Shown in pieces: positions 2 through 45,843 of a stretch of DNA of 45,918 nt. The notes beneath the pieces were generated by a model, which was given only the letters and a program-made list of their open reading frames with translations, did no database searches and was not told where the DNA came from. The stretch spans positions 2,804,130-2,850,047 of the forward strand of contig CP070651.1 in NCBI GenBank assembly GCA_020354625.1. The letters run 5' to 3'. The first letter of the stretch is position 1. The number at the start of each line of letters is the position of its first letter. Origin of the DNA: Trueperaceae bacterium (GTDB taxonomy: Bacteria; Deinococcota; Deinococci; Deinococcales; Trueperaceae). A program made the position numbers and the translations under genes.

Positions 2-1693
2 TACCAGTCGATCATCCGGGGAGGACATATCTTCCTCACCATCCGGCTGGGTGACGGGGCACTCGAAAGCCACGGAGACAAGCTCGACCTCTTGGTCTGC
101 CTGAACCAAGACACCATGAACCGGCACCTCGAGCACATGGGCCCCGGTAGCCGCGTCATCTACAACAGCAACACCATCAAGCCGGGCGAAACCCAAGATG
201 GGGCCTCGCTCTGCCCGATGCCCGTGGTGGAGTTGACGGATGGTAGCAAGAATAAACTCGTCCAGAACACGGTGGCCTTGGGCGTCATCATGTCGCTCCT
301 CGGGCTCGAGTTCGAGGTGCTCGAGGAGGCCTTGACCCTGCAGCTATCGCGCAAGGGCCAAGCGGTGGTCGATGAGAACGTAAGCGTCGCCCGGGCCGGC
401 TATCAGTTCGCCGGTGACAACTTCGAACCGTACCCCTTCTCGGTACCCAGAGGCCCCAAGCCGCTGGCCGTGTGGACCGGCAACGATGCGCTCGCCATGG
501 GCGGCGCGGCCTCTGGGGTGAAGTTCTACTGCGCCTACCCGATGAGCCCCTCTTCTGGGGTCTTGCACTGGATGGCCAAAAACGGCCGCGACCTCGACAT
601 CATGGTGCGCCAGGGCGAGAGCGAGATCGCGGTGGCCAACATGGTGGTCGGGGCGGCGCACACCGGTGTGCGCGCCATGTGTGCGACCTCCGGGGGAGGC
701 TTTGCGCTGATGACCGAGGCGCTGGGGATGGCCGGCATGCTCGAGGTACCCGCCGTATTCATCAACGTGATGCGCGCCGGTCCTTCGACCGGAGTGCCGA
801 CCAAGACCGAGCAGGGGGATCTCTGGCAGGTGCTGGGGGCGAGCCAAGGCGATTTCGAGCGCTTCATCGTGGCTCCCAAGAACCCGCTCGACGCTTTCAA
901 TACCCTGCCCGAGCTGTTCAATTTGACCGATAAGGCCCAATGTCCCGGCATCCTCATCTCGGACCTGCTCATCTCCGAAGGGACCTTCAGCGTCGACCCG
1001 GACGCGATCGACATGCACCCTGCCATCGACCGCGGAGAGCTGATCAACGAACCAGCTCCCGGCAAGAACGGTGGCCTAGCCGACCCCGGCACGCGCGAAG
1101 GGGGCGGCTACAAACGCTATGAGATCACCGAGAGCGGCATCTCCCCACGGGCCATTCCAGGGCTCGCGGGCTACGTCCACGTGGTCGCCACCGACGAGCA
1201 AGACGAGGACGGGGTGCTGATCAGCGACGAGTTCACCAACCCGCACAAGCGGCGCAGCATGGTCGAGAAACGCGCCCGTAAGTTCGTAGGGGTGGCAAGC
1301 GAAGTCGCTCCGCCGGTCCTGGAAGGTCCTGAAGACGCCGAGATCACGCTGGTCGGCTGGGGTTCGACCCACGGTGTCATCAAGGAAGCCGCCGAACAAC
1401 TAGGTGCCAGGGGCATCACCGTCAATCGACTGGCGATCAAGTGGATCGTACCCTTCCATGGAGACGTGGTCGGCGACATCCTCGAAAAAGCTGAGAAGGT
1501 GATCATCGTCGAGAACAACCATTCGGGGCAGTTCGCTCGCTATCTGCGCAGCGAGACCGGCTTCAAGGCGGATGGTCACATCCGAAAGTACGATGGCGAA
1601 CCGTTTATGCCGCACCACATCGTCGACGGCGTCTTGGAACAGGTGGCTGGTAAGACCGACGTGTTCGTCCCTTACCAGGAGTATGTGGTGTGA
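2..1693 (+). CDS. 2-oxoacid:ferredoxin oxidoreductase, fused gamma-alpha subunit (5' partial)
   Basis: Oxidative decarboxylation of a 2-oxoacid (2-oxoglutarate or a related acid) to acyl-CoA with reduction of ferredoxin, together with the beta subunit that follows. The frame is open from base 2. The first residues (YQSIIRGGHIFLTIRLGD, then LDLLVCLNQDTMNRHL) are the gamma-type domain, so the gene starts left of the window and only the N-terminal nucleotide-loop part of that domain is missing. A TTG at 92 is not a credible start because homology runs upstream of it. The alpha pyrimidine-binding domain follows (YPMSPSSG near residue 180, then VRQGESEIAVANMVVGAAHTG and MRAGPSTGVPTKTEQGD), and a transketolase-C-like domain ends the protein. 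It is 66 bp upstream of the beta gene. Family is clear; the exact substrate is not. Confidence 0.93.
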   Translation, partial: YQSIIRGGHIFLTIRLGDGALESHGDKLDLLVCLNQDTMNRHLEHMGPGSRVIYNSNTIKPGETQDGASLCPMPVVELTDGSKNKLVQNTVALGVIMSLLGLEFEVLEEALTLQLSRKGQAVVDENVSVARAGYQFAGDNFEPYPFSVPRGPKPLAVWTGNDALAMGGAASGVKFYCAYPMSPSSGVLHWMAKNGRDLDIMVRQGESEIAVANMVVGAAHTGVRAMCATSGGGFALMTEALGMAGMLEVPAVFINVMRAGPSTGVPTKTEQGDLWQVLGASQGDFERFIVAPKNPLDAFNTLPELFNLTDKAQCPGILISDLLISEGTFSVDPDAIDMHPAIDRGELINEPAPGKNGGLADPGTREGGGYKRYEITESGISPRAIPGLAGYVHVVATDEQDEDGVLISDEFTNPHKRRSMVEKRARKFVGVASEVAPPVLEGPEDAEITLVGWGSTHGVIKEAAEQLGARGITVNRLAIKWIVPFHGDVVGDILEKAEKVIIVENNHSGQFARYLRSETGFKADGHIRKYDGEPFMPHHIVDGVLEQVAGKTDVFVPYQEYVV

Positions 1694-1759
1694 GAAGGCA
1701 CTGTCAAAGCGACGGCACAAGTTTCGATCGGATCAGAATGTTCCCAGGGAGATGGTGAC

Positions 1760-2656
1760 ATGGCGGTATCGACAAACACCGACGCGAGCGCGTTAAAGGC
1801 AAGAGACTTCCAGGGCAAGGTGCGCCCCGACTGGTGCCCGGGCTGCGGGGATTTCGGCGTTCTCAACGCCCTGCAGCGGGCCTGTGCCGAGCTCGGCATT
1901 CTGCCGCACGAACTCTTGGTGGTAAGCGGCATCGGTTGTTCCTCGAACTTCCCCGGCTTTTTCAACGCCTACGGGGTACACAGCCTGCACGGGCGCGCTC
2001 TGGCGGTAGCGACGGGAGCCAAGATGGCCAACCATGAACTGAACGTGGTGGTCACCGGCGGTGACGGGGACGGCTACGGCATCGGCGGCAACCACTTCAC
2101 CCACACGGCGCGCCGCAATGTCGACCTGACCTACCTCGTCATGAACAACCAGATCTACGGCCTGACCACCGGACAACTCTCCCCGACCAGCACCGAGGGG
2201 ATGCAGACCAAGAGCAGTCCCTTCGGCAGCGTCGAGCGCCCTGTGAACCCCACCACGGCGGCGATCATGAACGGCGCCACCTTCGTTGCGCGGGGCTTCA
2301 GCGGTCACGGGCCGCACCTGGTCGAGTTGATGAAACAGGCGATCCAACACAGGGGCTTCGCCCACATCGACATCTTCAGCCCCTGCGTGACCTTCAACCA
2401 CGACAACGACTACCCGTTTTTCAGGGAGCGGGTCAAGGCGCTCGAGGACGAAGGCCACGACCCGAGCGACTGGAAGGCCGCCTGCGAAAAGGCTATGGTC
2501 TGGGACGACACCATCTACACCGGGCTCTTTTTCAAGGCTGAAGGTGTACCGACTCTGGGTAGGAAGGAACCGGTCTTGGCAGGCGGGCCGCTGGCCCACC
2601 ACCCGCTCGGCTTGAGCGAAGAACAGGCGCAAAAGATCCTGAAGCGGATGTTGTAG
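1760..2656 (+). CDS. 2-oxoacid:ferredoxin oxidoreductase, beta subunit
   Basis: Thiamine-diphosphate subunit that pairs with the fused gamma-alpha subunit upstream. The 298 aa length is normal for two-subunit KorB/PorB-type enzymes. WCPGCGDFG (C26, C29), the IGCSS cysteine (C60) and a late SPCVTF cysteine fit the four ligands of the single [4Fe-4S] cluster of this family. GGDGDGYGIGGNH followed by MNNQIYGLTTGQ is the TPP/Mg motif. The ATG at 1760 follows a GGGAGATG ribosome site. Both subunits were probably made from one message. The enzyme is cytoplasmic and would feed CoA esters and reduced ferredoxin to central metabolism. 2-oxoglutarate is a common substrate for this architecture, but pyruvate or branched-chain acids cannot be excluded. 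Confidence 0.93.
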   Translation: MAVSTNTDASALKARDFQGKVRPDWCPGCGDFGVLNALQRACAELGILPHELLVVSGIGCSSNFPGFFNAYGVHSLHGRALAVATGAKMANHELNVVVTGGDGDGYGIGGNHFTHTARRNVDLTYLVMNNQIYGLTTGQLSPTSTEGMQTKSSPFGSVERPVNPTTAAIMNGATFVARGFSGHGPHLVELMKQAIQHRGFAHIDIFSPCVTFNHDNDYPFFRERVKALEDEGHDPSDWKAACEKAMVWDDTIYTGLFFKAEGVPTLGRKEPVLAGGPLAHHPLGLSEEQAQKILKRML

Positions 2657-2697
2657 CCTTACCTCTGTTCAAACCGTAGAAGTCACCCGTACCAGGT

Positions 2698-2714
2698 GTG
2701 AGCGGGACGCTCAC
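2698..2714 (+). terminator. Small hairpin after the oxidoreductase pair
   Basis: A perfect 7-bp stem (GTGAGCG / CGCTCAC) with a GGA loop lies 41 bp after the beta-subunit stop and 60 bp before the SDR start. No T tract follows. It could be a weak terminator or attenuator between the two units; the evidence is only the palindrome. Confidence 0.3.
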
Positions 2715-2773
2715 TCACTCGTTGGAGACGTCGGCAAATAGCTACAGAACGTCCGACTTCATGAAGGGAGATC

Positions 2774-3574
2774 GTGAAGCAAACAGAAGTGGAGTTTCAG
2801 AACAAGGTCGCGCTCGTCACCGGCGGCGCCATGGGTATCGGTGAGGGGGTGGCCAGGCTCTTGGCCGAGCGCGGCGCCAACGTGGCTATCGTCGACAGGG
2901 CAGCAGAGGCCGCTCATAGCGTGGCGCGCGAGATCATCGAGCAGGGAGGCGTAGCCCAGGTCATCACCGCCGACCTGGCCAAGGCCGAGGAGTGCCAACG
3001 CGCGGTTTCAGAAACCGTGAGGGCTTTCGGCAGGCTCGATATCGTGTCCAACAACGCAGGCATCCAACGCTACGGTACCGTCGAATCGACCCCGGAATCA
3101 GTCTGGGACGAGGTGATGGATGTCAACCTGAAAAGCGTCTACCTCGTTTGCCACTACGCCATGAAGCACCTGAAAGCCACTCGAGGGGCAGTCGTCAATA
3201 TGGCGTCGGTGCAGGCTTTTGGGACCCAGCAAAATGTGGTGGCCTACGCCACCTCCAAAAACGCTCTGGTGGGCCTTACCAAAAGCATGGCACTCGATCA
3301 TGCTCGAGACGGCGTCCGCGTCAACTGCGTGGCACCGGGCTCGGTCGACACTCCGATGCTGCGTTGGGCCCTGTCGCTCGACCCGGACCCGGAAGGGCTG
3401 CAACAAGTGGTGAACGACATGCACCCACTCGGTCGCATCGCCACCCCCCGCGAGGTCGCGGAAGTGGTCGCTTTCCTGGCCTCAGAGCGTGCCTCGTTCG
3501 TCACAGGAGCGACCTACCTCGTCGACGGTGGGCTGCTGCTGCCGCTCGGGGGCGCACCAAAGGCAGAGAAATGA
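2774..3574 (+). CDS. Short-chain dehydrogenase/reductase (SDR)
   Basis: Classical SDR oxidoreductase of 266 aa acting on an unidentified alcohol or sugar. Visible motifs in order: cofactor loop TGGAMGIG (residues 16-23), D41 after beta-2 (IVDRAAEA), which favours NAD(H), NNAG (93-96), catalytic S145, Y158 and K162 (YATSK), and the C-terminal VDGG. The start is GTG at 2774 behind AAGGGAG; an ATG at 2761 is out of frame. The stop overlaps the start of the next gene (ATGA), so the two are translationally coupled and the downstream protein probably works on the same substrate. Confidence 0.9.
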   Translation: MKQTEVEFQNKVALVTGGAMGIGEGVARLLAERGANVAIVDRAAEAAHSVAREIIEQGGVAQVITADLAKAEECQRAVSETVRAFGRLDIVSNNAGIQRYGTVESTPESVWDEVMDVNLKSVYLVCHYAMKHLKATRGAVVNMASVQAFGTQQNVVAYATSKNALVGLTKSMALDHARDGVRVNCVAPGSVDTPMLRWALSLDPDPEGLQQVVNDMHPLGRIATPREVAEVVAFLASERASFVTGATYLVDGGLLLPLGGAPKAEK

Positions 3575-4662
3575 AAAGGGATATGAAGCGCTGGCTCCTC
3601 GAAAACGACAAGGTACGGGTGGGTGTCACCGAGGAGGGCGGTCACTTGGGCCCTGTGGCCTTCCGAACCGAACGAGGCGAGATCGCACCGATGCACGTCG
3701 CCCCCTGGGCCGGAGAAACCCTTAGCCCAGACATCCCTCCGATCTTGCAGATCCTACAGGGCGACTTCTTTTGCGCCCCCTTCAGCGACAGCGATCTCAT
3801 CCCGGATGAAGATCGCCCCCACGGCACCACCGCCAACGACCGCTGGCGAGAGGTCGCCATTCGCGACGACCGGCTCACGCTCGAGCTCGCCAAACGGGTA
3901 ATGGGCGCGATGGTGCAAAAACACCTCCACATTCGCCCCGGCGAGTGCATGGTCTACCAGCAGCACGACTTTATCGGGGGCGACGGGGCATTGCCCGTGG
4001 GGCACCACGCCATGTTGCGCGTGCCGGAGACCGTCACTCTCAGCTTTTCGAAGTGGCTTTTTGGCGCGACTCCACCGGCACCGGTCGAAACCCCCCCGGC
4101 AGGCCGCTCCCTTCTGGGCTACCCGCAACGGTTCGAAGATCTCGCCCACGTCGAGTTGGCTGACGGTTCCGTGGCGGACATGAGCCGCTATCCGACCCTA
4201 GAGCGGCACGAAGACCTCTTGATGGTCATCGCTGACCCCTCTCTCCCCTTCGCCTGGTCGGCCGTCACCGCGCCCGAGCACGGCTGGGTCTGGTTTAGCC
4301 TCAAATCCCCCCGAACGCTGCGCGGAACCATGCTCTGGCTAAGCCACGGTGGGCGCGACTATCCACCCTTCTCGGGGAGGCACACCCATGTACTCGGCGT
4401 CGAGGAGGTCACGAGCTACTTCCACCTCGGTCACCGGGCCTCGGTCGAAGCCAATGCGTTTTCGGATCGAGGCGTTCCCACGGCGCTTACCCTCTCTCCA
4501 GACCAGACACTCAGCATCCGCTACGCTTTTGGGCTCGTCACCATCCCACCCCAATTCGAATCCGTGAAGGCGATCGAAGCCCACCCAGGTGGTGTCTTAT
4601 TGAGAGGAAACCAGGGTCTGGAGGTCTTCACCCCTTGCGATCTCGGCTTCATTACAGGGTGA
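3571..4662 (+). CDS. Unrecognised protein coupled to the SDR; possibly mutarotase-like
   Basis: A 363-aa protein I do not recognise with certainty. It starts at ATG 3571, overlapping the SDR stop by 4 nt, which fixes the start and implies coupled translation. There is no signal peptide or membrane segment. The opening (WLLENDKVRVGVTEEGGHLG), the many beta-strand-like stretches and scattered His/Glu residues resemble galactose-mutarotase-type sugar-binding beta-sandwich proteins; that is inference from pattern, not a domain match. Its TGA stop lies in the first heptamer of the H7 repeat that begins here. A role in sugar or sugar-acid handling beside the SDR is the simplest guess. Confidence 0.6.
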   Translation: MKRDMKRWLLENDKVRVGVTEEGGHLGPVAFRTERGEIAPMHVAPWAGETLSPDIPPILQILQGDFFCAPFSDSDLIPDEDRPHGTTANDRWREVAIRDDRLTLELAKRVMGAMVQKHLHIRPGECMVYQQHDFIGGDGALPVGHHAMLRVPETVTLSFSKWLFGATPPAPVETPPAGRSLLGYPQRFEDLAHVELADGSVADMSRYPTLERHEDLLMVIADPSLPFAWSAVTAPEHGWVWFSLKSPRTLRGTMLWLSHGGRDYPPFSGRHTHVLGVEEVTSYFHLGHRASVEANAFSDRGVPTALTLSPDQTLSIRYAFGLVTIPPQFESVKAIEAHPGGVLLRGNQGLEVFTPCDLGFITG

Positions 4663-4873
4663 TGAGTGATGAGAGATGAGAGATGAGTAGGGTAACGAAT
4701 CGAGTAATGGGAAATGGGTGATGGGGAATGGGTAAAAGGCCTGCGAATGGCGCGGTTCAGCCGCATGTGTTCGCAACACCCATCACTCATTACTCATTAC
4801 CCATCACCTCTCTTTCAGACGCTGTAACCAGAGCAGACTAGCTCGAGCACGACCTTTCGCAGCTCTTATCACC
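4660..4873 (+). repeat. H7 composite heptamer repeat, copy A
   Basis: Fills the gap between two convergent genes. The left part is a run of RATGRGT-like 7-mers on the + strand (gatgagt, gatgaga, then aatggga, aatgggt, gatgggg, aatgggt). A core at about 4740-4776 contains CGCGGTTCAGCCGCATGTG and ends in TTCGCAACACCC. A block of reverse-orientation 7-mers (acccatcactcattactc) ends at 4808. A second core contains AGAGCAGACTAGCTCGAG and ACCTTTCGCAGC, then a decayed last array. Module order matches copies C and E. The gene upstream ends in the first 7-mer; the AI-2E-type gene ends 2 bp beyond. Confidence 0.85.
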
Positions 4874-4874
4874 G

Positions 4875-5954
4875 TCAGGTTTGCTGCTGGTACCAATCGC
4901 TTGTCTTGTAGTAGTCCCGGTAGAGGAGCTGCAAGAAGGCCACCGTGGGGATCGACAGCAAGACGCCCCAAAATCCGAGCAGACCTCCACCGATGATCAC
5001 AGCCGAAAGGATCGCCACGGGGTGGACATCCACTCCTTTCGACAACAACATCGGCCCCAACAAGTTCCCATCGAGCTGTTCGATCACGCTCATCACCACC
5101 AACACCACGAGCGCCAGCTGCCAACTCACGGTCAGGGCCATCAGCGTCTCGATCAAGGTTGAAATCAACGGTCCGACATAGGGAACGGGATTGAGAAGGG
5201 CGTTGATCAGACCGAGCGCGGCGGCGTTGGGAACACCGAGTAGCGAGAGCACCAGCCAGGCGACAAAAAACATGATCGTCGCTTCGAGCAACTTGGCGCG
5301 ACAGTAGCCGCCCACAGCGCTGTCGAGCTTCCCGGCGAGTTCTCTGACCACGCCTTGGTGGCGCTTCGGGAAGAGTTCGTAGAGGCTCTGGCGAATCACC
5401 GGGAACCCTGCAACGGTAAAGCCGATGAACACGAACAGGATGAAGAGGTTGAAAAGGTTCTGCAAGAAACCCTGGGTGCCCTGCAGGAGCGAGTTGACGA
5501 GGCCGTTGGCATTCGCCTCGAGCCAGGTCACCAGATTCTGCTGTGCCCGGTCCCAGAAAGCGATCAGGTCCTGCTGGTTGCGGGTGATCAGGTTCTGGAG
5601 CCAGGCAGGGGCGTCGGTCTGCAACCAGTCTGGAATCTGCGTCAGCATCTGACCCAAGGTCACCGGCAACTGAGCCAGGTCGATCAGGATGCGGCTGAGC
5701 AGAAACATGGCGACCACTACCAGAACCACCAAGATGCTCATAGCGAGGGCGACGCCTAGGCTGCGCCGGACTTTCCTGCGCTCGAGCCAGAGCAGGAATG
5801 GATCGACCAGGTAGGCGACCAAGAATGCGATGAGAAAACTCCGCCAGGCCAGCTGCGTCCGGCTCAGCACCACAAAGAGCAAGACCAGGCCGAGAGCGAT
5901 CAAGAGGGTACGCAGGTAGACGTTCTGCCAGATTCGTAAAAAGCCGTCTACCAT
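4875..5954 (-). CDS. AI-2E family transporter (PerM/TqsA-like permease)
   Basis: Integral membrane protein of 359 aa, the usual size for the UPF0118/AI-2E exporter family. Hydrophobic segments are visible near residues 14-30, 37-55, 67-92, then after a roughly 100-residue extracytoplasmic amphipathic stretch (LPDW/W-rich) at about 165-190, 215-245, 250-285 and 300-335. Family members export diverse small solutes or exchange ions; autoinducer-2 export is established for only some, so the substrate is unknown. ATG 5954 has no Shine-Dalgarno sequence but a strong promoter directly upstream, indicating a leaderless message. The stop lies 2 bp from H7 copy A. Confidence 0.88.
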   Translation of the reverse strand: MVDGFLRIWQNVYLRTLLIALGLVLLFVVLSRTQLAWRSFLIAFLVAYLVDPFLLWLERRKVRRSLGVALAMSILVVLVVVAMFLLSRILIDLAQLPVTLGQMLTQIPDWLQTDAPAWLQNLITRNQQDLIAFWDRAQQNLVTWLEANANGLVNSLLQGTQGFLQNLFNLFILFVFIGFTVAGFPVIRQSLYELFPKRHQGVVRELAGKLDSAVGGYCRAKLLEATIMFFVAWLVLSLLGVPNAAALGLINALLNPVPYVGPLISTLIETLMALTVSWQLALVVLVVMSVIEQLDGNLLGPMLLSKGVDVHPVAILSAVIIGGGLLGFWGVLLSIPTVAFLQLLYRDYYKTSDWYQQQT

Positions 5955-6053: not shown

Positions 6054-6166
6054 TAAGGACCTCAAACTTAAGGCGAGCGGAGCGAGGTTGGACCGCGGCC
6101 GCCCGCAGGGCGCAGGCTCGGCGCTTCGCTGACCCAATTCTGCAAACATAACTTGATGTGCTTAAA
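6054..6166 (-). mobile_element. M element copy 1 (MITE-like, inverted)
   Basis: A 113-bp non-coding element. Read on the minus strand it starts TTTAAGCACATCAAGTTATG, continues through TTTGCAGAATTGG and AACCTCGCTCCGCTCG, and ends CTTAAGTTTGAGGTCCTTA. The two ends are imperfect inverted repeats (TAAGCACATCAA against TAAGGACCTCAA). The same ends and internal blocks occur in copies 2 (8593) and 3 (12600). It holds no ORF, so mobility would need a transposase elsewhere. It sits between the AI-2E-type start and the carbamoylase stop. Confidence 0.65.
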
Positions 6167-6178
6167 GACCACTCGGGG

Positions 6179-7420
6179 TCAACGCTTCGAGATCCAATCC
6201 ATCGTCTTCGAGGCGAGCCTGTCCATGGCCGCCACCGAGAGCTCGATATGCTCTTCTTTGCTGTCCTCGATCTTGTTGTGCGAGATCCCGTGGAGGCTCT
6301 GCAGAAACATCATCACCGTGGGCACGCCGGCGCGGGCCACTTCAGCGGCATCGTGCAGCGGTCCGCTCGGAAGCCGGTGGCTCACGCCGCAGGTCTCACG
6401 GATGGCCGCGTCGCAGAGATCGATGAGGCCGGGATCGAAGAGCACCGGATCGATCTGCCAGAGGCGATTCCAAGCGACGCCGACGTTGCCCTCTTCGGCA
6501 AAACGCTCGCTCGCCTCTTTCGCCTCCTTGAGCATCTGGGCCAAGGCGGCACCGTCGAGGTGTCTTTGATCCAAGGTGATCTGGCACTCCTCGACCACGC
6601 TGGTGACGATACCTGGCTTGGTCACGCAACTGCCGATGGTACAGACCCCACCGTTGCGGTCGGTGATGCGGTAGATCTCCTGGGACATCTTGCCGGCGGC
6701 CAGAAACGCGTCACGCCGCCGGTCCATCGGTGTAGAGCCCGAGTGAGCCGCCTGACCACTGAAGGCCATGGCGTGGCGTTCGACACCGAAGGTGCCGAGC
6801 ACTACACCGAGCGGGAGGTCGAGGTCGAGCAACACAGGGCCCTGTTCGATGTGGAGCTCGAGATAGGCCGCGGCGTTGGTAAACTCCTTCCCCGACTCGA
6901 GTACTCGCTCGAAGTCGACGCCGTACTCCCTTACGGCATCGGGGAGGGCGATGCCGTCTCTATCCACCAGCCCACGCGCCTCGTCCATATCCAAAAAACC
7001 CGAGGCGGCACTCGAACCGAACAGGCTCTTGCCGAAACGGGCTCCTTCTTCATCGGCCCAATCGACCAGCCTCACGGTCACCGGCGGCCTGCCGCCGTAT
7101 TCATCGGTAAGCCGCCGCAAGATCTCGACGCCCGCCAGGGTGTTGAGACAACCGTCGAGCCAACCTCCGTTGGGAACAGAATCCATGTGTCCACCGATCA
7201 ACAGCGCCCGGTCGGATTCTCCCTCCATGGTGGCCCAGAGGTTGGCGGCTTCATCCTGGTGAATCTCGAGCGGGAGCGCCTCGAGCTTGCTACGCAGCCA
7301 CTTACGGGACTCGGCCCAGGTCGGGGTAAAGGCGACGCGCTGGGCGCCGTCCGCATCAGCTGTGAACGACCGCAAGTCCTTGAGTTCTTCGACGGTGCGT
7401 TTGGGTTGGACGCTGGCCAT
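6179..7420 (-). CDS. Zn-dependent hydantoinase/carbamoylase family amidase (HyuC/AllC-like)
   Basis: M20-type binuclear metallohydrolase of 413 aa that removes a carbamoyl or amide group from N-carbamoyl-amino acids, beta-ureidopropionate or allantoate, releasing ammonia and CO2. Metal-site motifs: GGHMDSVPNGGWLDG (H78, D89), DWADEEGARFG (E124/E125), a central LELHIEQGP with the dimerisation segment after it (GQAAHSGSTPMDRR) and the C-terminal SLHGISHNKIED histidines. ATG 7420 is preceded by GAGGAGGACATC. It stands alone on the minus strand. Which family substrate is used cannot be read from the sequence; several amide hydrolases elsewhere in the window suggest nitrogen scavenging from ureido or amide compounds. 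Confidence 0.88.
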   Translation of the reverse strand: MASVQPKRTVEELKDLRSFTADADGAQRVAFTPTWAESRKWLRSKLEALPLEIHQDEAANLWATMEGESDRALLIGGHMDSVPNGGWLDGCLNTLAGVEILRRLTDEYGGRPPVTVRLVDWADEEGARFGKSLFGSSAASGFLDMDEARGLVDRDGIALPDAVREYGVDFERVLESGKEFTNAAAYLELHIEQGPVLLDLDLPLGVVLGTFGVERHAMAFSGQAAHSGSTPMDRRRDAFLAAGKMSQEIYRITDRNGGVCTIGSCVTKPGIVTSVVEECQITLDQRHLDGAALAQMLKEAKEASERFAEEGNVGVAWNRLWQIDPVLFDPGLIDLCDAAIRETCGVSHRLPSGPLHDAAEVARAGVPTVMMFLQSLHGISHNKIEDSKEEHIELSVAAMDRLASKTMDWISKR

Positions 7421-7496
7421 GATGTCCTCCTCATCTAGCGCGGTGATAGTAGGTCAAGTGTACCGTCGTAACGAGTGTGTGCGAAAGTGCCCGGGT

Positions 7497-7707
7497 TGAG
7501 AACTGCAAAAGGTCGTGCTCGAGCTAGCCTGCTCTGGTTGTGGTGTCTGAAAAAGAGGTGATGGGTGATGAGTAATGCGTGATGGGTACCTCAAAGGGTA
7601 GGGGTCCAGCCGTTCCCGAGCACGTCACCCACGCATTCCCCATTTCCCATTACCCATTACCCGATTCATCGCCCTACTCATCACTCATGACTGCTCACTC
7701 ATCACCG
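7497..7707 (-). repeat. H7 composite heptamer repeat, copy B
   Basis: Minus-oriented copy lying 3' of the VapC-like gene. On the + strand it begins with the second core (AAGGTCGTGCTCGAGCTAGC, CTGCTCTGG), then GGTGATGGGTGATGAG 7-mers, a core of different sequence at about 7590-7635, then reverse 7-mers (attccccatttcccattacc) and a last array ending at 7705. The VapC-like stop is 2 bp further on. The 50-bp second core is nearly identical to that of copy A. Confidence 0.8.
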
Positions 7708-7708
7708 C

Positions 7709-8143
7709 TTAGTTGAGACCGCCATCGCTCGCCGGAATACCTAGGGCGTGCGCGGCCTGGATCAACTTCCGGTCGAGCGAGTAGATCTCGGCACCGTGCC
7801 TCTTGGCCACAGCGAGGTGCAAGGCATCCGAGGTGCGAAGCTCGAGCGAGGGATGAGCGAGGAGGAGCCGTGAAGCGAGTTCGAACTCGTAGGCTCCCAG
7901 CGGAAGCAGCGTGAACGCCTTTTCGATATCCATCTCCAGGGCTTCTACCAGCGCGCTCACAGCTTGCTCAGAGAGGAGTTTCAACCTCAGGGCCCGGGCC
8001 AGTGTGCTGGCGAACTCGGTTTGGGTCCACACGCTAAGGCAGAGCCGGCCCACCGGAGCATTTTTCAGCGCGGTCTCGACGGCTCGGCTACTCGGCTCCT
8101 CGAGATAGTAGGGGATCAAAAAGCTGGTATCGAGGTAGATCAA
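7709..8143 (-). CDS. PIN-domain toxin (VapC-like)
   Basis: Toxin of a type II toxin-antitoxin pair; PIN proteins are Mg-dependent endoribonucleases that usually cleave tRNA or rRNA. The 144 aa protein has the family's acidic residues: D4 in MIYLDTSFLIPYYL, E43 in QTEFASTLAR, D105 in LRTSDALHLAVA and D119 in IYSLDRKL. The start is TTG at 8143, directly abutting the antitoxin stop, so the two are one transcript with coupled translation. No transmembrane part. Assignment to VapC is by fold motifs and context with a Phd-like partner. Confidence 0.88.
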   Translation of the reverse strand: MIYLDTSFLIPYYLEEPSSRAVETALKNAPVGRLCLSVWTQTEFASTLARALRLKLLSEQAVSALVEALEMDIEKAFTLLPLGAYEFELASRLLLAHPSLELRTSDALHLAVAKRHGAEIYSLDRKLIQAAHALGIPASDGGLN

Positions 8144-8371
8144 TCAATACCTGGCCTCACTGCGCATCGTCAAAAGCCCCTCGAAGAGGCTGGCCTCGAG
8201 CCGGCCATGCTCTCGCCTGAAATCGGCGCGCGAGGGCAGGGGCTGCTTGAGTCTGGACATGACGATCACCGGTTTCCCCCGGCGGGTAATGGTCACGTCC
8301 TCCCCCGCTTCTACACGCCTGATGATCTCGCTCAGCTTGGCTTTGGCTTCTGCAACGCTTACCTCTACCAC
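8144..8371 (-). CDS. Phd/YefM-type antitoxin of the PIN toxin
   Basis: A 75-aa antitoxin. The N-terminal 45 residues (SVAEAKAKLSEIIRRVEAGE, then VTITRRGKPVIVMSR) are a typical Phd/YefM DNA-binding fold; the C-terminal part (SRADFRREHGRLEASLFEGL) should wrap the toxin. Start GTG 8371 lies behind TAGGAGACCCG. It comes first in the pair, as usual for autoregulated modules, and its stop touches the toxin start. Confidence 0.88.
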   Translation of the reverse strand: MVEVSVAEAKAKLSEIIRRVEAGEDVTITRRGKPVIVMSRLKQPLPSRADFRREHGRLEASLFEGLLTMRSEARY

Positions 8372-8592
8372 CGGGTCTCCTAGCTCACGTATCGCTGGAA
8401 CAGATGTCGAAGACGGTTTGGTCTAGCTTAGCACGCGCCTACCGGAACATCTGCCTATCTCACCCTGCTTCGCCAAATCTGGTCGCAAATACTAAACCAG
8501 CTTTCAGTGCACTTGTCACGCAAACTGAATGCATTTGCTTAACCTCGCTCTACTCGGGTGATCTTGGCAGTGCCAAGATCACCGAAAGGCGG
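8372..8592. other. Gene-free stretch with palindrome and partial M-like module
   Basis: No supported gene between the antitoxin start and the BrnT-like gene. The right half (about 8538-8592) holds AACCTCGCTCTACTCG followed by a 27-bp perfect palindrome, the same order of parts as inside M copy 2, so it looks like the remnant of another M-type element. Nothing else is recognisable in 8400-8535 beyond the likely promoter region of the antitoxin. Confidence 0.5.
8557..8583. repeat. 27-bp perfect palindrome
   Basis: Arms of 13 bp (GGTGATCTTGGCA / TGCCAAGATCACC) around a single G. It lies 9 bp before M copy 2 and after AACCTCGCTCTACTCG, the same block that precedes the internal hairpin of M copy 2. 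It would form a strong hairpin in RNA of either strand; a terminator for upstream reading or an element end are the likeliest roles. Confidence 0.6.
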
Positions 8593-8711
8593 TTTAAGCA
8601 CGTCCAAGTTACGTTTGCAGCAACGGACCTGAGACCGGCCGCGATTCCAACCTCGCTCCGCTCGCCCCCCGTTTGGGGCAATGCCCCAAACTCAAGTTGG
8701 AGGTTCTTAAA
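8593..8711 (+). mobile_element. M element copy 2 (MITE-like)
   Basis: A 119-bp element. Left end TTTAAGCACGTCCAAGTTAC, right end AAGTTGGAGGTTCTTAAA; the left end and the reverse complement of the right match at 16-17 of 21 positions. Inside, AACCTCGCTCCGCTCG precedes a hairpin with 10-bp arms (GTTTGGGGCA / TGCCCCAAAC, 8671-8691). The outer bases extend the palindrome (CGGTTTAAG and CTTAAACCG). Its right end contains GGAGG, which serves as ribosome site for the gene starting at 8714. Confidence 0.7.
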
Positions 8712-8713
8712 CC

Positions 8714-9004
8714 GTGACATCGCAACGTCCGACGCACTTTATCTGGGATGAAATCAACTTGCGAAAGGTGGAAAGACATCGACTTACACCAGAGGAAATC
8801 GAGGAAGTCTTTACGGATCCAACTGGTGACGTGAGGCGTACCCGAAAATCAGTGGGGGGACAGGTTCGTTATCAGATTATCGGCCGCACCGAAAGTGGTC
8901 GGTTGCTAAAGGTGCCTTTTGAGATCAGCAAGCGAGGGATTCGACCCATTACAGCGTTTGATGCCGGCAAGCGAGATTATCATCTATACTGGAGAAAGCG
9001 ATGA
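8714..9004 (+). CDS. BrnT-like toxin
   Basis: A 96-aa protein of the BrnT family (RelE-like fold ribonuclease toxins). The N-terminal signature FIWDEINLRKVERHRLTPEE is the usual F-W-D-x-x-K-x-x-x-x-x-x-H pattern followed by a V-F helix, and the end (ITAFDAGKRDYHLYWRKR) matches the R/Y-rich terminus. Start is GTG 8714; the ribosome site GGAGG at 8699-8703 belongs to the end of M copy 2. The stop overlaps the next start (ATGA), so toxin and antitoxin are coupled with the toxin first, the usual BrnTA order. Confidence 0.75.
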   Translation: MTSQRPTHFIWDEINLRKVERHRLTPEEIEEVFTDPTGDVRRTRKSVGGQVRYQIIGRTESGRLLKVPFEISKRGIRPITAFDAGKRDYHLYWRKR

Positions 9005-9216
9005 ATAAGAACACGGTTATAATAAGGGATACCGAACGCACCCTCATTACGCAGCCGGAGGATCTCCCTGACTTTTCAACCATGACGGCTGAGCAAGAAG
9101 CCGACTGGTGGGAGAAACACGACATCGCGCCTGATCTCCTGGTGAGCAGCCCAAGCGTTCGCGCTGAAGTATACCAGGCGCTGGGTAGGAGTGATCCGGC
9201 AAAAAAACGTGCCTGA
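9001..9216 (+). CDS. Probable antitoxin of the BrnT-like toxin
   Basis: A 71-aa acidic protein overlapping the toxin gene by 4 nt. The segment FSTMTAEQEADWWEKHD resembles the S-E-E-E-x-x-x-W-x-x-H-D stretch of BrnA/CopG antitoxins. A clear ribbon-helix-helix is not visible, so it may neutralise without the usual DNA-binding end or be a shorter variant. Position, size and coupling support the antitoxin call more than sequence does. Confidence 0.6.
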   Translation: MNKNTVIIRDTERTLITQPEDLPDFSTMTAEQEADWWEKHDIAPDLLVSSPSVRAEVYQALGRSDPAKKRA

Positions 9217-9234
9217 GAGAGAAACAACAGGGTC

Positions 9235-9657
9235 TTACAGGGACACAGCACCTGTCTCTGCCGCGGCCTCTTGGCGGCGTCTCGACATCTCTCCCGCTAC
9301 GTTTTGGAGCACCTCGTCCGGGTCACGCTGCTCGGGAAAGTGTCGGTAGTAGTTGCAGTGATCGCACACCAGAACCGGGTAGGGGGTCTCATCAGAAAAT
9401 TGTTGCCATTTTAGGGTCGTTGCACAAGCAGGGCACAGGGGCGCGTAGCTGTGATGAAAAACGTCATCGGAGGACCACTCCAGCTTCCAATTTACGCCAT
9501 CGATGCCGTTTTCTTCGCCCTTCCCCAGACCGATCGACTGCAGCGTGCGAACGATCCAGAAAATGCCTCTACCCCAGAAGTGGGTCTTGAGCACTACAAA
9601 CGACCACGTTGCAAATCTGAATACGACCATCTTCGACCCAGCAAGTGCCGGGGACAC
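9235..9657 (-). CDS. Zinc-ribbon protein of unknown function
   Basis: I do not recognise this 140-aa protein. Two cysteine pairs, CPAC and CDHC, about 25 residues apart (residues 74-105), form a zinc ribbon. They are preceded by an aromatic-rich region (FATWSFVVLKTHFWGRGIFW) that could be membrane-associated or a packed hydrophobic core, and followed by a charged helix (MSRRRQEAAAE). The longest frame starts at GTG 9657; ATG 9630 is the alternative and neither has a convincing ribosome site. It ends 18 bp from the antitoxin stop, in convergent orientation. Confidence 0.6.
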   Translation of the reverse strand: MSPALAGSKMVVFRFATWSFVVLKTHFWGRGIFWIVRTLQSIGLGKGEENGIDGVNWKLEWSSDDVFHHSYAPLCPACATTLKWQQFSDETPYPVLVCDHCNYYRHFPEQRDPDEVLQNVAGEMSRRRQEAAAETGAVSL

Positions 9658-9729
9658 CTCCGCTTCCTACAGTCTTAGGCCGGGAGTCATCTTAGCTCTA
9701 GCCTATACGCTCACCGTCGCATAGAGCCC

Positions 9730-10446
9730 TCAACGGTCACACTCTGCGTTGGCTACTGCACGACCTGGCACCGTAGGATGGGGATCGAACCGCTGCTGGG
9801 CCTGGAGCACCCGCAACGCCGCACAGGCAGCCCCATAACCGTTATCGATGTTGACGGCCAGAACACCCGGGCTACAGCTGCCGAGAGCGGCCTCTAGTGC
9901 CGTCTTTCCCCCTGCCGACACGCCGTAACCGACAGAGGTAGGAACTGCGATTAGGACACTGGGAATGAGGCCACCGAGAACGCTAAAGAGCGCTCCCTCC
10001 ATACCGGCAAGCGCGATGACGACCGGGTGCGAAGCGATCGCATCCCGCCGCTCAAGAAGCCGCCAGAGACCGGCCACCCCGACATCGGTAAACGCCGTGC
10101 TCGCCTCACCGAAGTAGGCGAGGGTCCTTGAAGCCTCGCCGGCAACCTGCACGTCCGAGGTTCCGGCCGACACAACAGCCACCCGTGCCGGAACGAGCGG
10201 CTCGACACCCTCCCCTATGATCCCCGTACGTGACACGGGATCGTAATCGAGCTTCGCCAGCAGTTCCTCCGGAATCCGGGCTGCCTTTTCGGGATCCAAG
10301 CGGGTCAAGAGCATGCGCACGCCCTTACGTTGCGCGTAAGCGATCGCATCAGCAACCTGCTCGGGTGTCTTCGACAGGCAGAAGACGGCCTCTTCTAGTC
10401 CGGTCCGGTCTTTGCGAAAGGTGTCGAATAGGTAGTTATCGGGCAT
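9730..10446 (-). CDS. larB: LarB, nickel-pincer cofactor biosynthesis (NaAD carboxylase/hydrolase)
   Basis: First enzyme of nickel-pincer nucleotide (NPN) synthesis: it carboxylates the pyridinium ring of nicotinic acid adenine dinucleotide and cleaves the phosphoanhydride, giving pyridinium-3,5-biscarboxylate mononucleotide. The 238 aa carry an N-terminal helical region and a PurE-like domain from about residue 87 (VARVAVVSAGTSD-type start, YFGEAS, DVGVAGLWRLL, ALAGMEGALFSVLGGL, VPTSVGYGVSAGG). SCSPGV with C191 probably corresponds to the catalytic cysteine of characterised LarB, and VNIDNGYGAA follows. ATG 10446 lies inside the end of larE (11-nt overlap). Last gene of larC-larE-larB. Confidence 0.93.
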   Translation of the reverse strand: MPDNYLFDTFRKDRTGLEEAVFCLSKTPEQVADAIAYAQRKGVRMLLTRLDPEKAARIPEELLAKLDYDPVSRTGIIGEGVEPLVPARVAVVSAGTSDVQVAGEASRTLAYFGEASTAFTDVGVAGLWRLLERRDAIASHPVVIALAGMEGALFSVLGGLIPSVLIAVPTSVGYGVSAGGKTALEAALGSCSPGVLAVNIDNGYGAACAALRVLQAQQRFDPHPTVPGRAVANAECDR

Positions 10447-11269
10447 CGGAATAGTCTCTCAGGAAAGCACTCCCCATCTTGTACGGCCCAAACTGCACAT
10501 CCCCGTAGCCATCACACAGGTCGCCGATCTCCACCCGTAACTTCAGATACTCGTCCCTGCCGAGCTCCTCGAGCGAGACGTCATCGAGCTGGACCTCGAT
10601 GCCTCTCGCCTTGACGCGGCAGCGTACGATCCGGTCAGGGCCCAGATGAGCTTTCAAAAGTTTTTCGACCCGGTGAACGAGGGTGAGACGCTCGACGGTC
10701 ACTGGCACACCGGTGACGAGGCGGCTCGAGAGACAAGGCGAGGCCGGGAGTTCCGCCACGTCATCGAGACCGGCCTCCCGCGCCAACTCCCGTACCGCCT
10801 CTTTTCCGAGGCCCGCCTCGATGAGTGGATGCCGCACCCCATAGGACTCGGCCGCCTTGAGTCCGGGCCGGTAGTCGCCGAGATCGTCGGCGTTGGCTCC
10901 AGAGATCATCGCCGCGTCTGTGCGCCTAGAGATCGCCTCATAGAGGTTCATCTTGCAGAAGAAACAGCGGTTCACGGGGTTTTGTAGATAGTTCGGATCG
11001 CTGAACTCGTTCGCTCGCAAGACCTCGAACCTCCAGCCGTAACGCCCGGCCAAACGCTCGATACGCTCGGTCGCCTCGGGCGGTACCGCGGGGGAAACCG
11101 CGTGGTACATCGCAGCCGCCGGGCCGAGTACCTGATGGCACTGATAGGCGAGCACGGTGCTATCCACTCCCCCACTGACAGCTACCGCCACCCGCGAGAA
11201 TCCCCTTAGTACACGGGCGAGCCGCTCACGACTCGGCACGTTCGATCCCTCACACTCACTCATCCGCAC
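10436..11269 (-). CDS. larE: LarE, sulfur transferase of nickel-pincer cofactor synthesis
   Basis: Activates the two carboxylates of the LarB product with ATP and converts them to thiocarboxylates. The PP-loop SGGVDST is at residues 32-38. Three cysteines sit where the family places its sulfur site: C102 and C105 in NRCFFCK and C179 in SPCLSSR. The single-cysteine LarE of Lactiplantibacillus sacrifices its own sulfur, whereas three-cysteine forms such as that of Thermotoga hold a [4Fe-4S] cluster; this protein belongs to the latter by inspection. Starts possible at GTG 11269 or ATG 11263, both overlapping larC; ends overlapping larB. Confidence 0.93.
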   Translation of the reverse strand: MRMSECEGSNVPSRERLARVLRGFSRVAVAVSGGVDSTVLAYQCHQVLGPAAAMYHAVSPAVPPEATERIERLAGRYGWRFEVLRANEFSDPNYLQNPVNRCFFCKMNLYEAISRRTDAAMISGANADDLGDYRPGLKAAESYGVRHPLIEAGLGKEAVRELAREAGLDDVAELPASPCLSSRLVTGVPVTVERLTLVHRVEKLLKAHLGPDRIVRCRVKARGIEVQLDDVSLEELGRDEYLKLRVEIGDLCDGYGDVQFGPYKMGSAFLRDYSDAR

Positions 11270-12548
11270 CCTCCAAAGCCGCCGCCTCGATTCGCCGGCG
11301 CAGCGCCGCCCGCTCGGACTCGTTCAGATCGAGCTGGGCGATATCATCCGATTCGGCTTTCGCCGTACGTATACCGTGAGGACGCACGACCCGTTTGACC
11401 CCCATGGCCTTCCCAGCCACCGTTACCTCGCGGGCGTCTCTGGTGAGCACGGCGCGATGCTCGACATGCCACCTGAGACCGATGGTGGTGGTCTCCTCGA
11501 AACAGGCCTCTGCCACGAGGTCGACGGCGACCGGATCACACAGGATCTGCACGCTGAATAGCACCCGGCCCTTCTTACCGTATACAGGCCACTGGCAAAT
11601 GTCGCGCACGGCCGGCAAACCGGCGATTCTGGCGAGGCCGATAGAGAGGTCCTCAGGTGTCTGATCGTCGACCTCGAAGCGCAGCACGGCGATCTGCTCG
11701 CGTGAGAACCGGTCATCGCGTGAGAAGCGGTCGCCAGCAGCGCCAAAGGCCAGAAGCCGCAAGGTGTTGGCCAGGCCCGGTAAGCGCCGGGTGCCAAAAC
11801 CGTACCCCGAGGCCGTAATCTGCAGGGTCCCTTCGGGCGGGCGTCGGCCGGGCTCGAGCGAACGGAGAATCGCAGCGCCTGTCGGGGTCACCCGTTCTCC
11901 GGCAATGCCGTCATCGCTGACCGGAAACCCTTCGAGGAGGTGCACGGTGGCCGGAGCAGGGACCGGCAGAGGTCCGTGGGAGGTCACGACCCTGCCGCTG
12001 CCGAGCGGTAAGACCCCAACCGACCAGGTGGCTCGTTCGAACAGCTCGATCATATAGGCGGCACCCACGATATCCGCCACCGAATCCCAATCGGCGATCT
12101 CATGAAAATGAACCTCGTCGGGTTGCCCGCCATGTACCCGCGCTTCGGCCTCAGCGAGGAGGGTAAAGATCGCAAGAGCCCGGCGCAACACCTTCGGCGC
12201 CAACGGCGAGGCTTCGAGCCGTGCACGAATATCGCGAAAGGTACCGGTCGGCCGCTCGGGCCCTCCCTCGGGCGCTGCGATCGCCAATCTCGAACCTGTC
12301 AGACCGTGATCGCGCGCCGGCCGATGCACAACCGACCACTCCTCCGGCAGACCGGCCGCTCGCATCGCCTCGACCATACCGCCGTAGAGATTGGGCCAGG
12401 CATCGAGCACGGCGGCCAAGAACATATCCCCGGCGAGGCCTCCTAGCGGATCGAGGTGCAGGTGCACCACCTCTCGCACGGAAACCGTGCCCTGTCTGGT
12501 GGTCGGCCCAGTCGTTACCGAGCCGTGGTCAGTTTGCTCTGGCGACAC
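11256..12548 (-). CDS. larC: LarC, nickel insertase of nickel-pincer cofactor synthesis
   Basis: CTP-dependent cyclometallase that inserts Ni into the pincer nucleotide. The 430-aa protein opens with HLHLDPLGGLAGDMFLAA, the LarC signature, followed by HFHEIADWDSVADIVGAA and the C-terminal domain (VLRFEVDDQTPEDLSIGLAR onwards). In some bacteria the gene is split in two by a programmed frameshift; here it is one continuous frame. The longest start is GTG 12548 behind AAAGGGAG; a GTG about 23 codons later is possible. First gene of the tight larC-larE-larB operon, which sits just downstream of M copy 3. Confidence 0.93.
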   Translation of the reverse strand: MSPEQTDHGSVTTGPTTRQGTVSVREVVHLHLDPLGGLAGDMFLAAVLDAWPNLYGGMVEAMRAAGLPEEWSVVHRPARDHGLTGSRLAIAAPEGGPERPTGTFRDIRARLEASPLAPKVLRRALAIFTLLAEAEARVHGGQPDEVHFHEIADWDSVADIVGAAYMIELFERATWSVGVLPLGSGRVVTSHGPLPVPAPATVHLLEGFPVSDDGIAGERVTPTGAAILRSLEPGRRPPEGTLQITASGYGFGTRRLPGLANTLRLLAFGAAGDRFSRDDRFSREQIAVLRFEVDDQTPEDLSIGLARIAGLPAVRDICQWPVYGKKGRVLFSVQILCDPVAVDLVAEACFEETTTIGLRWHVEHRAVLTRDAREVTVAGKAMGVKRVVRPHGIRTAKAESDDIAQLDLNESERAALRRRIEAAALEGADE

Positions 12549-12599
12549 AACTCCCTTTCACACAGAGCGAATACACCTGCCGGGTCTGCTCGCATTCGC

Positions 12600-12738
12600 T
12601 TTAAGCACGTCCAAGTTATGTTTGCAGAATTGGACCGCAGACGGCCGCGGGACGCAAGCTCGGCGCTCCGCTGACCCACACTCGCTTCTGTAGCCTTAAG
12701 TTTGAGATACCATCTCAAACTTAAGTTGGAGGTTCTTA
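12600..12738 (+). mobile_element. M element copy 3 (MITE-like)
   Basis: A 139-bp element with left end TTTAAGCACGTCCAAGTTAT and right end AACTTAAGTTGGAGGTTCTT. Left end against reverse-complemented right end: 17 of 21 bases match (TAAGCACGTCC against TAAGAACCTCC at the tips). GCTCGGCGCTCCGCTGACCC inside it is shared with copy 1. A perfect internal hairpin with 14-bp arms (CTTAAGTTTGAGAT / ATCTCAAACTTAAG) and a 3-nt loop lies at 12695-12725. It lies between the start of larC and the stop of the aldo/keto reductase gene. Confidence 0.7.
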
Positions 12739-18509: not shown

Positions 18510-18745
18510 TAATGAGTAAACAGTAAACCTTGATGAGTGTGGAGTAGCAAGAGGGGAATGGGCGATGGGGAATGGGGAATGGGTAAAAGACCGGTAAACA
18601 GCTCGGTTCAGGCGCGTGTGTTCGCAGCACCCATCACTCATTACTCATCACCCATCACCTTTTTTGCAGACGCCACCATCAGAGCAGACTGGCTCGACCA
18701 CAACCTTTCGCAGCACCCATCACTCATTACTCATTACCCATTACC
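18510..18745 (+). repeat. H7 composite heptamer repeat, copy C
   Basis: The most complete copy; it fills most of the 313-bp gap between the amidohydrolase and the second creatininase-type gene. In order: array with GAGTAAACAGTAAAC, GGGAATGGG-type array ending GGGTAAAAGACCGG, first core (AGCTCGGTTCAGGCGCGTG, TTCGCAGC), array of acccatc/actcatt units, TTTTTTGCAGACGCC, second core (AGAGCAGACTGGCTCG, CAACCTTTCGCAGC) and last array to 18744. The first core is almost identical to that of copy E 4.3 kb away in the opposite orientation. Confidence 0.88.
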
Positions 18746-18804
18746 AAAAGGGTTTTCACGAGGCTCGCTCTAAAAGGGAATGGGCCTGGGAAGGGACGGA
18801 CTCG

Positions 18805-19683: not shown

Positions 19684-20376
19684 ATGAACCGACCTTCGAA
19701 AAACCGAGAACTGGAAAGCCTGAAAACCAACTATAAGTCGATCGCCGATGTAACCTGCGAGAAATTGCGAAAAGCGATCCTTGAGGGTGTTTTCAGCCCG
19801 GGTGAACAGCTCAAAGAACGAGAACTCGCCACCCTCATGGGTGTCAGCACCACCCCGATCAAAGCGGCGCTGCAACGCCTGGGAATGGAAGGATTGGTCA
19901 CCAGCCTGCCCATGCGTGGGAGTTTCGTCGCGGAAAACATCTCCGCCATCCTGACCGAAGTAGGGCTCATCCGGGCTGCTCTCGAAGGGACCGCAGCGTA
20001 TCTCGCCGCCATGAAAGCGACCGATGAAGAGATCACCACACTTCAGGGGCAGATCGAAAAGATGGAACGGTGCACAGCGGATCGAGACATCGGTCGAGCG
20101 ATCGAGGCCAACACGAACTTCCACGAGATCATCCACCAGATCAGCGGCAACCACTCGCTCCAACAGATGACCGGCATCGTGCGCCAGTACGACGACATCA
20201 CACGTCCCCAAGCGCTTTCCGACGAATCTCAGATGGTGCAGGGTCTCCAAGAGCACAAAGCGATCTTCGAGGCTATTAAAGCCGGAGATCCCGAGGGGGC
20301 GGACGCGAGTATGCGCGCCCACGTCCTAAGGAACACGCGCTTTTTGAAGCAACAGGGTCTCGGCGTAGGGAAGTGA
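19684..20376 (+). CDS. GntR family regulator, FCD (FadR-type) domain
   Basis: A 230-aa transcription factor. Winged helix at residues about 15-80 (VTCEKLRKAILEGVFSPGEQ, ERELATLMGVSTTPIKAALQ, RLGMEGLV), then an all-helical FCD effector domain with its metal-site histidines (NFHEIIHQISGNHSL, EHKAIFEAI, MRAHVL). Start ATG 19684 sits 8 nt after GAGGA; in-frame codons further upstream overlap the promoter. It probably controls the flanking hydrolase genes in response to a carboxylic acid, the usual FCD ligand class. Its TGA stop is the first part of H7 copy D. Confidence 0.88.
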   Translation: MNRPSKNRELESLKTNYKSIADVTCEKLRKAILEGVFSPGEQLKERELATLMGVSTTPIKAALQRLGMEGLVTSLPMRGSFVAENISAILTEVGLIRAALEGTAAYLAAMKATDEEITTLQGQIEKMERCTADRDIGRAIEANTNFHEIIHQISGNHSLQQMTGIVRQYDDITRPQALSDESQMVQGLQEHKAIFEAIKAGDPEGADASMRAHVLRNTRFLKQQGLGVGK

Positions 20377-20602
20377 TGAGTGAACAGTAATGAGTTATGA
20401 GTAGCAGGAGGGTAATGGGTCATGGGGAATGGGGAATGCGTGGTTGAACCACCAAGGATAGGCTGCACCCGTGCCTTTCGCAGCACCCATCACCCATTAC
20501 TCATCACCCATCACCAAATGGATTCTGGACAACAGAAAACACGGACTCAGCCGTTGCCTTTCGCAGCACCCATCACCCATTACTCATCACCCATCACCAA
20601 AT
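20374..20602 (+). repeat. H7 composite heptamer repeat, copy D, with internal 48-bp duplication
   Basis: Lies between convergent genes. It begins with GTGATGAGTGAACAGTAATG (overlapping the GntR stop), then GGGTAATGGGTCATGGGG-type units and a changed first core. Then comes a module of TGCCTTTCGCAGC plus reverse 7-mers that occurs twice as a perfect 48-bp direct repeat (20472-20519 and 20555-20602), separated by 35 unrelated bases. The perfect identity shows recent duplication of a module. Confidence 0.85.
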
Positions 20603-20633
20603 AGGTTTTGGACCGAATTGCGAAAACTCGCTT

Positions 20634-22785: not shown

Positions 22786-22816
22786 GAGTCTACTCTTACT
22801 GTCTCGTCTGAGAGAA

Positions 22817-23058
22817 GGGTGATGGGTGATGAGTAATGAGTGATGGGTGCTGCGAAGTTCGAGACGGAGCCCGTCTGCTCTTGCGGCTTTGTCTGAAAAA
22901 AGAGGTGATGGGTGATGAGTAATGAGGGATGGGTGCTGCGAACACACGCGCCTGAACCGAGCCGTTCGCTGGTCTTTTACCCATTCCCCATCACCCATTT
23001 CCCATTACCTTGTATCGTTGCCCTACTCATTACTCATCACTGTTTACTCATCACTCAT
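22817..23058 (-). repeat. H7 composite heptamer repeat, copy E
   Basis: Minus-oriented full copy between convergent genes. Read on the minus strand: ATGAGTGATGAGTAAACAGT array, GGGAAATGGGTGATGGGG array, first core (CGGCTCGGTTCAGGCGCGTG), acccatc/actcatt array, TCTTTTTTCAGAC, second core (AAGAGCAGACGGGCTC, ACTTCGCAGC), last array. The first array overlaps the end of the aminotransferase gene and encodes its last residues and stop. Confidence 0.88.
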
Positions 23059-44668: not shown

Positions 44669-44704
44669 TACGCGTTTTGGTAGTCTTGTCGCTGCAATTT
44701 CTTT

Positions 44705-44809
44705 GGTAATAGGTGATGAGTGATGAGTAATGGGTGCTGCAAAAGGTTGAGCTCGAACCAGTCCACTTTGCCGTTACCCCGCTCACCACTGTTTACTCAT
44801 CTCATCACC
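44705..44809 (-). repeat. H7 composite heptamer repeat, copy F (short)
   Basis: A reduced, minus-oriented copy in the 201-bp gap after the ankyrin gene. It has gatgagt/aatgggt units, GTGCTGCAAAAGGTTGAGC and a shortened second core, then CACTGTTTACTCATCTCATC, the GAGTAAACAGTG block of array 1 in reverse. The first core and one array are missing. Confidence 0.75.
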
Positions 44810-45652: not shown

Positions 45653-45690
45653 TCTAAGGCGAGATCAGAACTTTGACCGCCGAAACCTTA

Positions 45691-45806
45691 TTGGTGATGA
45701 GTGATGAGTGATGGGTAATGAGTGATGAGTGCTGCAAAGGTCACGGCTGAGCCATAATCGATCATCTGTCGCCCACTCATTCCTCATTACTGTTTACTCA
45801 TCACCC
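45691..45806 (-). repeat. H7 composite heptamer repeat, copy G (short)
   Basis: A minus-oriented short copy between convergent genes: a long clean run of 7-mers (gatgagt, gatgagt, gatgggt, aatgagt, gatgagt), GCTGCAAAGGTCACGGCTG, a divergent core, then CTCATTACTGTTTACTCATC, the reverse of the GAGTAAACAGTAATGAG block. Confidence 0.78.
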
Positions 45807-45843
45807 TTGCGATCATATCGAGAAAACCACTCCGAAAACCGCT

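Follow-up and report, generated by a model that had tools for sequence, protein, structure and literature searches.

A TA-bounded family of miniature elements with IS630-like ends and reversed internal segments in a Trueperaceae genome

Three elements in the window and their neighbours

The window is a stretch of 45,918 nucleotides, positions 2804130-2850047 of the 4.29-Mb genome of a Trueperaceae bacterium (contig CP070651.1, assembly GCA_020354625.1), which is assembled as one contig with many 100-N joins in the fetched stretches. It contains three short elements belonging to a dispersed family with the working name M. The features at these places are listed below, and the bounds of the M copies count one TA at each end.

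6054-6164, minus strand: M copy 1, with an inverted core and without the right hairpin
6088-6137, minus strand: core of M copy 1, 50 bp, TTGG...CCAA, reversed compared with the majority of long copies
8493-8596, plus strand: N-family copy, from a second short family bounded by TA, immediately adjoining M copy 2
8595-8709, plus strand: M copy 2, form with a short core, sharing the TA on the left with the N element
8671-8691, plus strand: right hairpin of M copy 2, GTTTGGG-GCAATGC-CCCAAAC, loop in the minority orientation
8714-9004, plus strand: brnT-like gene (PF04365, 7.4e-10), with a GTG start 10 nt past the GGAGG of the right end of M copy 2
12602-12738, plus strand: M copy 3, full-length form with the majority core orientation
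12695-12725, plus strand: right hairpin of M copy 3, CTTAAGTTTGAG-ATACCAT-CTCAAACTTAAG

The first-pass annotation described these elements as a non-coding, MITE-like family with imperfect terminal inverted repeats. The elements are real: a left end of 19 bases is exact in copies 2 and 3 (0.01 expected), and copy 1, which is in minus orientation, lacks one base of this end. The earlier statement that the two ends of copy 3 match at 17 of 21 positions holds if the reading of both starts at TAAG. The intergenic position of all three copies was borne out by the gene neighbours. Copy 1 has an AI-2E-type transporter gene on one side and an M20 peptidase gene on the other, copy 3 is flanked by genes of the aldo/keto reductase and LarC-type nickel insertion kinds, and copy 2 has the N element before it and the brnT-like toxin gene after it.

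The right end of M was considered as a general ribosome-binding site and rejected. A start within 12 nt followed by an open frame of at least 70 codons was found past the right end in 5 and past the left end in 4 of 39 copies, which is no excess. The GGAGG of copy 2 before brnT is thus the only standing candidate for ribosome binding, as judged from its spacing, and does not represent a general property.

Units of seven bases (ATGAGTG/ATGGGTA type), both direct and inverted, fill long stretches of the window at 4658-4905, 7503-7706, 18512-18756, 20372-20609, 22787-23075, 44701-44803 and 45682-45828.

Size and copy number of the family

A search for further copies in the genome, which the first-pass annotation had proposed, was productive. 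Copy 3 as a query of 144 bases gave 59 matches, the best of the others reaching 97% and 95% identity across some 140 bases; among the matches are copies that were hit twice through their palindromes. A 17-base end pattern had 67 matches compared with 0 for the reversed control pattern. The sites of M in the genome amount to about 59, with 42 elements listed with both ends and 17 partial ones. Three of the 42 (1255835, 1555587 and 1999340) have an end that is damaged, changed or fused and are left out of the flank count, giving 39 complete copies. These measure 107-144 bp in 38 cases, and the remaining one is a remnant of 32 bp at 1231237 that consists of the two ends only.

There are two size forms, one short (about 113 bp) and one long (about 137 bp). 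The short length, the lack of coding capacity and the many scattered copies are those of a MITE. The core is G+C-rich, as judged by eye, and M thus does not share the A+T-richness that is given for most, but not all, bacterial elements of this kind in a survey (PMC2229807).

At 440526-440675 of the genome there is an inverted dimer of the left half of M that ends at an assembly gap. It could be a true fold-back copy or an effect of the assembly.

Ends and target sites

The terminal inverted repeats are imperfect and about 22-26 bp long, and the consensus of the left end agrees with that of the right end at 18 of 22 positions. The pattern Y-TA-[AG...CT]-TA-R was found in 37 of the 39 complete copies. 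In sampled DNA, YTAR constitutes 12.7% of the TA sites (NTAN), which gives a binomial P of about 4e-31 for M, and the flanking positions beyond YTAR follow no comparable rule. Judged by their pattern, these flanks are the trace that would be expected from insertion into YTAR with duplication of TA. No convincing target duplication had been seen in the first pass, where the TA was counted into the ends; it is easily overlooked because it looks like a part of them. The duplicated TA, together with the many further copies and the IS630-like terminal repeats described below, supports the original reading of M as a MITE.

Traces of empty sites were also looked for. The relatives, none of them listed in the same genus, offered no orthologous one. 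Joining the flanks of M copies, as a test for gene disruption, restored no clear gene, and no clean paralogous empty site was found in 275 kb of sampled DNA. The joined flanks of copy 2 had two spanning matches, to a copy of family N and to an M-like sequence.

Relation to IS630 elements

The ends of M resemble those of IS630 elements in Deinococcota. An IS630 end from Deinococcus sp. QL22 agrees with the M consensus at 18 of 22 positions on the left and 17 of 22 on the right, while the best of 608 control 22-mers starting with TAAG in the Trueperaceae genome reached 14 of 22. The strength of this match is somewhat inflated, as it was selected as the highest among 16 IS630 ends, the others reaching 10-16.

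In a wider set of 198 genomes, 68 have IS630, ten of them in the same family as the source genome. Of the 30 IS630 loci fetched from relatives, 9 have an end with TAAGT at a distance of 59-71 bp beyond the DDE_3 domain. The ISTth6-related group, with its best match on plasmid unnamed3 of Deinococcus sp. QL22, has ends beginning with TAAGT. Like M, these elements have TA|AGT ends with TA on both sides, TRC..TCC in several ends and mostly a YTAR target: among the copies with both flanks readable, 8 of 11 are in YTAR sites and three (L148, L156 and L157) are outside. They differ from M in being 1.06-1.1 kb long with one or two transposase frames, whereas M has none.

Insertion into TA with duplication of TA is described for ISY100, a bacterial element of the IS630 family, in PMC2170065, and the reference list of the same paper names a preference of IS630 for CTAG.

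A transposase gene bounded by the terminal repeats of M, which the first-pass annotation had proposed to look for, was not found in the assembled genome. There were 0 hits for the IS630 DDE domain PF13358 in the Trueperaceae genome, and in the fetched DNA none of the 67 end matches pair around a gene. The DDE_Tnp_1 genes (PF01609), found in four places, were considered as mobiliser and rejected, since no M ends surround any of them. The absence of a transposase is weak evidence because the assembly is interrupted by gaps of 100 N, several of which fall at repeats, and the link between IS630 and M is also weak. Bacterial MITEs need not have an autonomous partner with matching ends, as the survey reports that such a partner was unsought or unfound except for RUP (PMC2229807).

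Taken together, M is in our estimate, with a probability of about 0.87, a non-autonomous MITE of IS630/Tc1-mariner type that owes its spread to an IS630 mobiliser and its internal rearrangements to hairpin flipping. From ends and target sites we conclude that its mobility would be of IS630 type; the transposase itself we infer. The mobiliser would belong to the ISTth6-like group of IS630 transposases, which is common in Deinococcota, and M would have moved by cut-and-paste into TA. The element supplying the transposase may have been lost by the genome or may be missing from the gapped assembly.

Two known families resemble M. According to the description of RUP from Streptococcus pneumoniae in PMC2229807, it is short and non-coding with TA ends and terminal inverted repeats, and it is attributed to an IS630 transposase acting in trans. 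The proposed mobiliser of RUP is IS630-Spn1, whereas the searches of the genome with M gave no IS630, and the two families are compared by description. The Correia/NEMIS elements of Neisseria are described there as having forms of about 107 and 155 bp with an internal difference of 50 bp, TA ends and terminal inverted repeats of 24 bp. The short and long forms of M can be likened to these, again by description, but in M the internal piece occurs in both directions.

IS982 insertions in M

Another candidate source of mobility was an element of the IS982 family with ends of 34 bp (TAAGCACATCCAAGTTACGTCGTTTGCTACYTGA). If the ends of M were the outer part of that element, its transposase could move M, and an M tip (TAAGCACATCCAAGTT, once TAAGCACAACCAACTT) does stand before three of the genome's four exact IS982 ends. 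All four abut AAGTT (once AACTT) of the M left end. In relatives, elements of this IS982 group terminate in ACGTCG or something close to it, with different DNA outside. At 1255960, moreover, an IS982 end joins AAGTTATGTTTGCAG, which is the inside of M and not its tip, and the contig at 1834595 starts exactly at AAGTTATGTTTGCAG. The IS982 ends ACGTCGTTTGCTAC lie inside the M tip and are distinct from it, and M lacks the ends expected of an IS982-derived element.

The ends in relatives and the junctions with the inside of M at 1255960 and 1834595 show that IS982 inserted in M. IS982 as M's own transposase was dropped since the ends in relatives are at ACGTCG, and movement of M by IS982 is highly improbable compared with the IS630-type mobility proposed above. 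M is instead a repeated landing site for IS982. The junctions are consistent with duplication of AAGTT by the IS982 insertion, the two junctions coming from different copies.

Searches of Pfam and NCBIfam with the two IS982 protein ends gave nothing. An IS982 match was found at C3:18549-18626 in a relative of the same order, and at the same coordinates in the Allomeiothermus silvanus plasmid NC_014214.1, which would put Thermaceae in that order and the lineage in Deinococcota.

Distribution

M was not found in any of 60 relatives at E 0.001 (36 from the same family and 24 from the same order, none listed as the same genus). The two-end pattern rendered nothing in 84,980 species genomes, among which the source genome itself may be absent, nor did it match viral contigs. 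The right-end pattern was found in one place, the Gemmatimonadota chromosome record CP070815.1. There, positions 409-3370 (L091) are 99.3% identical to the Trueperaceae genome over 2,962 bp, including an M copy with its flanks, and no further M copies were found in the record at E 0.01. The high identity with flanks and the single copy suggest a stray contig of this species, and the piece is probably misplaced. M is thereby shown to be present in one lineage only. It is a new lineage-restricted family, although the kind of element is already known; no paper on it was found in a limited search of the literature on MITEs, IS630, IS982, loop inversion and Deinococcus/Truepera repeats.

The Gemmatimonadota piece and the gapped assembly might suggest that the family is an artefact of assembly or binning. 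This is hardly credible, as about 40 copies are found in distinct flanks, most of them well inside contigs, and the lone copy in CP070815.1 points to a stray contig and not to a family there.

It is also very unlikely that M represents a regulatory repeat, of DNA or RNA type, that is inherited vertically and does not transpose. The hairpins with some paired changes and the intergenic position of the three window copies would fit such a repeat, but the YTAR rule, the IS630-like ends and the absence from all relatives tested speak for a mobile element. In addition, Rfam gave 0 matches in the window at the gathering score, and gene starts are not enriched past the right end.

Reversed cores and hairpin loops

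The reversed cores are the one feature of the IS630-type MITE that specialists might not expect. Among the 39 complete copies, about a dozen of the long form agree in the direction of the core (TTGGACC...GACCCAA). In six, the 50-bp core is reverse-complemented: 837626, 1072771, 2138282, 2810183 (copy 1 in the window), 3835000 and 3864200. The remaining complete copies have a short or diverged core. The core of window copy 1 scores 33 as reverse complement and 0 as direct. The comparison of 1072771 with 3798044 is the clearest, with 87 of 88 positions identical outside the core and 45 of 50 inside it, the latter only as reverse complement. An assembly gap is found 49 bp from 1072771, while the other five reversed copies have no close gap in the fetched loci.

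Smaller segments also vary in direction. The loop of 4 bp between CCGCGG-type arms, scored in 29 copies, is mostly GCGG or ACGG, with CCGC in three copies and GCGC in one. In the right hairpin the loops GTATCAC and GTGATAC, found in one copy each, are reverse complements. GCATTGC (17 copies) and GCAATGC (4 copies) differ in one base, so a point mutation could explain this pair. In the arms of the right hairpin some changes are paired, but many pairs are broken near the foot of the stem. Among 32 copies of family N, the palindrome is centred on C and on G in 15 copies each and on A and on T in 1 copy each, and the balance between C and G is as expected from flipping.

The internal hairpins may then have been turned round in some copies. 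Template switching across the hairpin arms at DNA replication, which would also keep the arms matched, is the likeliest cause of the loop flips and, less surely, of the flip of the 50-bp core. A flipped element might then be copied onward in either form. Template switching that inverts loops and repairs stems is described in PMC8794818, where bacterial rRNA is among the examples and loop inversions are reported as rare. The rRNA hairpins resemble M in having loops in both directions between intact stems, but in M the flips are found in a dispersed transposable element and the core flip spans 50 bp. The edges of the core are only TTGG/CCAA, and template switching would have little arm to work with there. 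Inside the reversed cores the inner GCGG loop is not turned round, so the core flip needs more than one step.

For the reversed core alone, inversion by a site-specific recombinase, as in a phase-variable switch, is unlikely. Reversed cores do have clean TTGG/CCAA ends, with the right edge drifted to TCCAT in two of the six, but the inverted repeat at the edges is of 4 exact bases only and the unflipped inner loop does not suit inversion of the whole segment. Four of the six reversed copies have one common layout without the right hairpin, which suggests a single flip event that was later copied.

The flipping might instead be a part of the life of the element. A folded or hairpin-ended intermediate would then allow stem-bounded segments to rejoin either way and give flip and flop isomers, as known for the ends of parvoviruses. 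This is distinctly unlikely; if true, such a life cycle might affect neighbouring genes.

With M as an IS630-type MITE, a Deinococcota-related lineage gains a family of its own with a clear TA/YTAR rule and a candidate transposase group. The many copies in both internal orientations constitute a natural record of hairpin flipping and of the upkeep of pairing in bacterial DNA.

Other short families

Family N is about 104 bp long with the ends TAAACCGGCTTTC / GAAAGRCGGTTTA and has 32 loci in the genome. It is found in YTAR wherever the ends are intact, and some M and N copies abut with one TA in common. The internal module AACCTCGCTCTGCTCG is common to M and N, and in other copies of both the module begins with TACTCGC instead. 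A third TA-bounded short family, P, is about 103 bp long with the ends TAAAGCAGGTATC / GGCAACCGCTTTA and abuts N or adjoins M at some sites. Its copies in the genome are:

69597-69699
747449-747556
1834746-1834851
3817437-3817552
4014800-4014916

M hosts IS982 and abuts two other TA-bounded families, which suggests that short repeats shape the sites of later insertions.

A transposase gene near 300 kb in the genome (L110, 977-2690), at one of the four DDE_Tnp_1 places, is IS1634-like by reading. Its left end is CCGTCTTTCCGACCCC, and its right end shares CCGTCTTTCC, similar to the N tip. The sequence CCGTCTTTC, common to the ends of this gene and family N, is a weak lead to a possible link between them.
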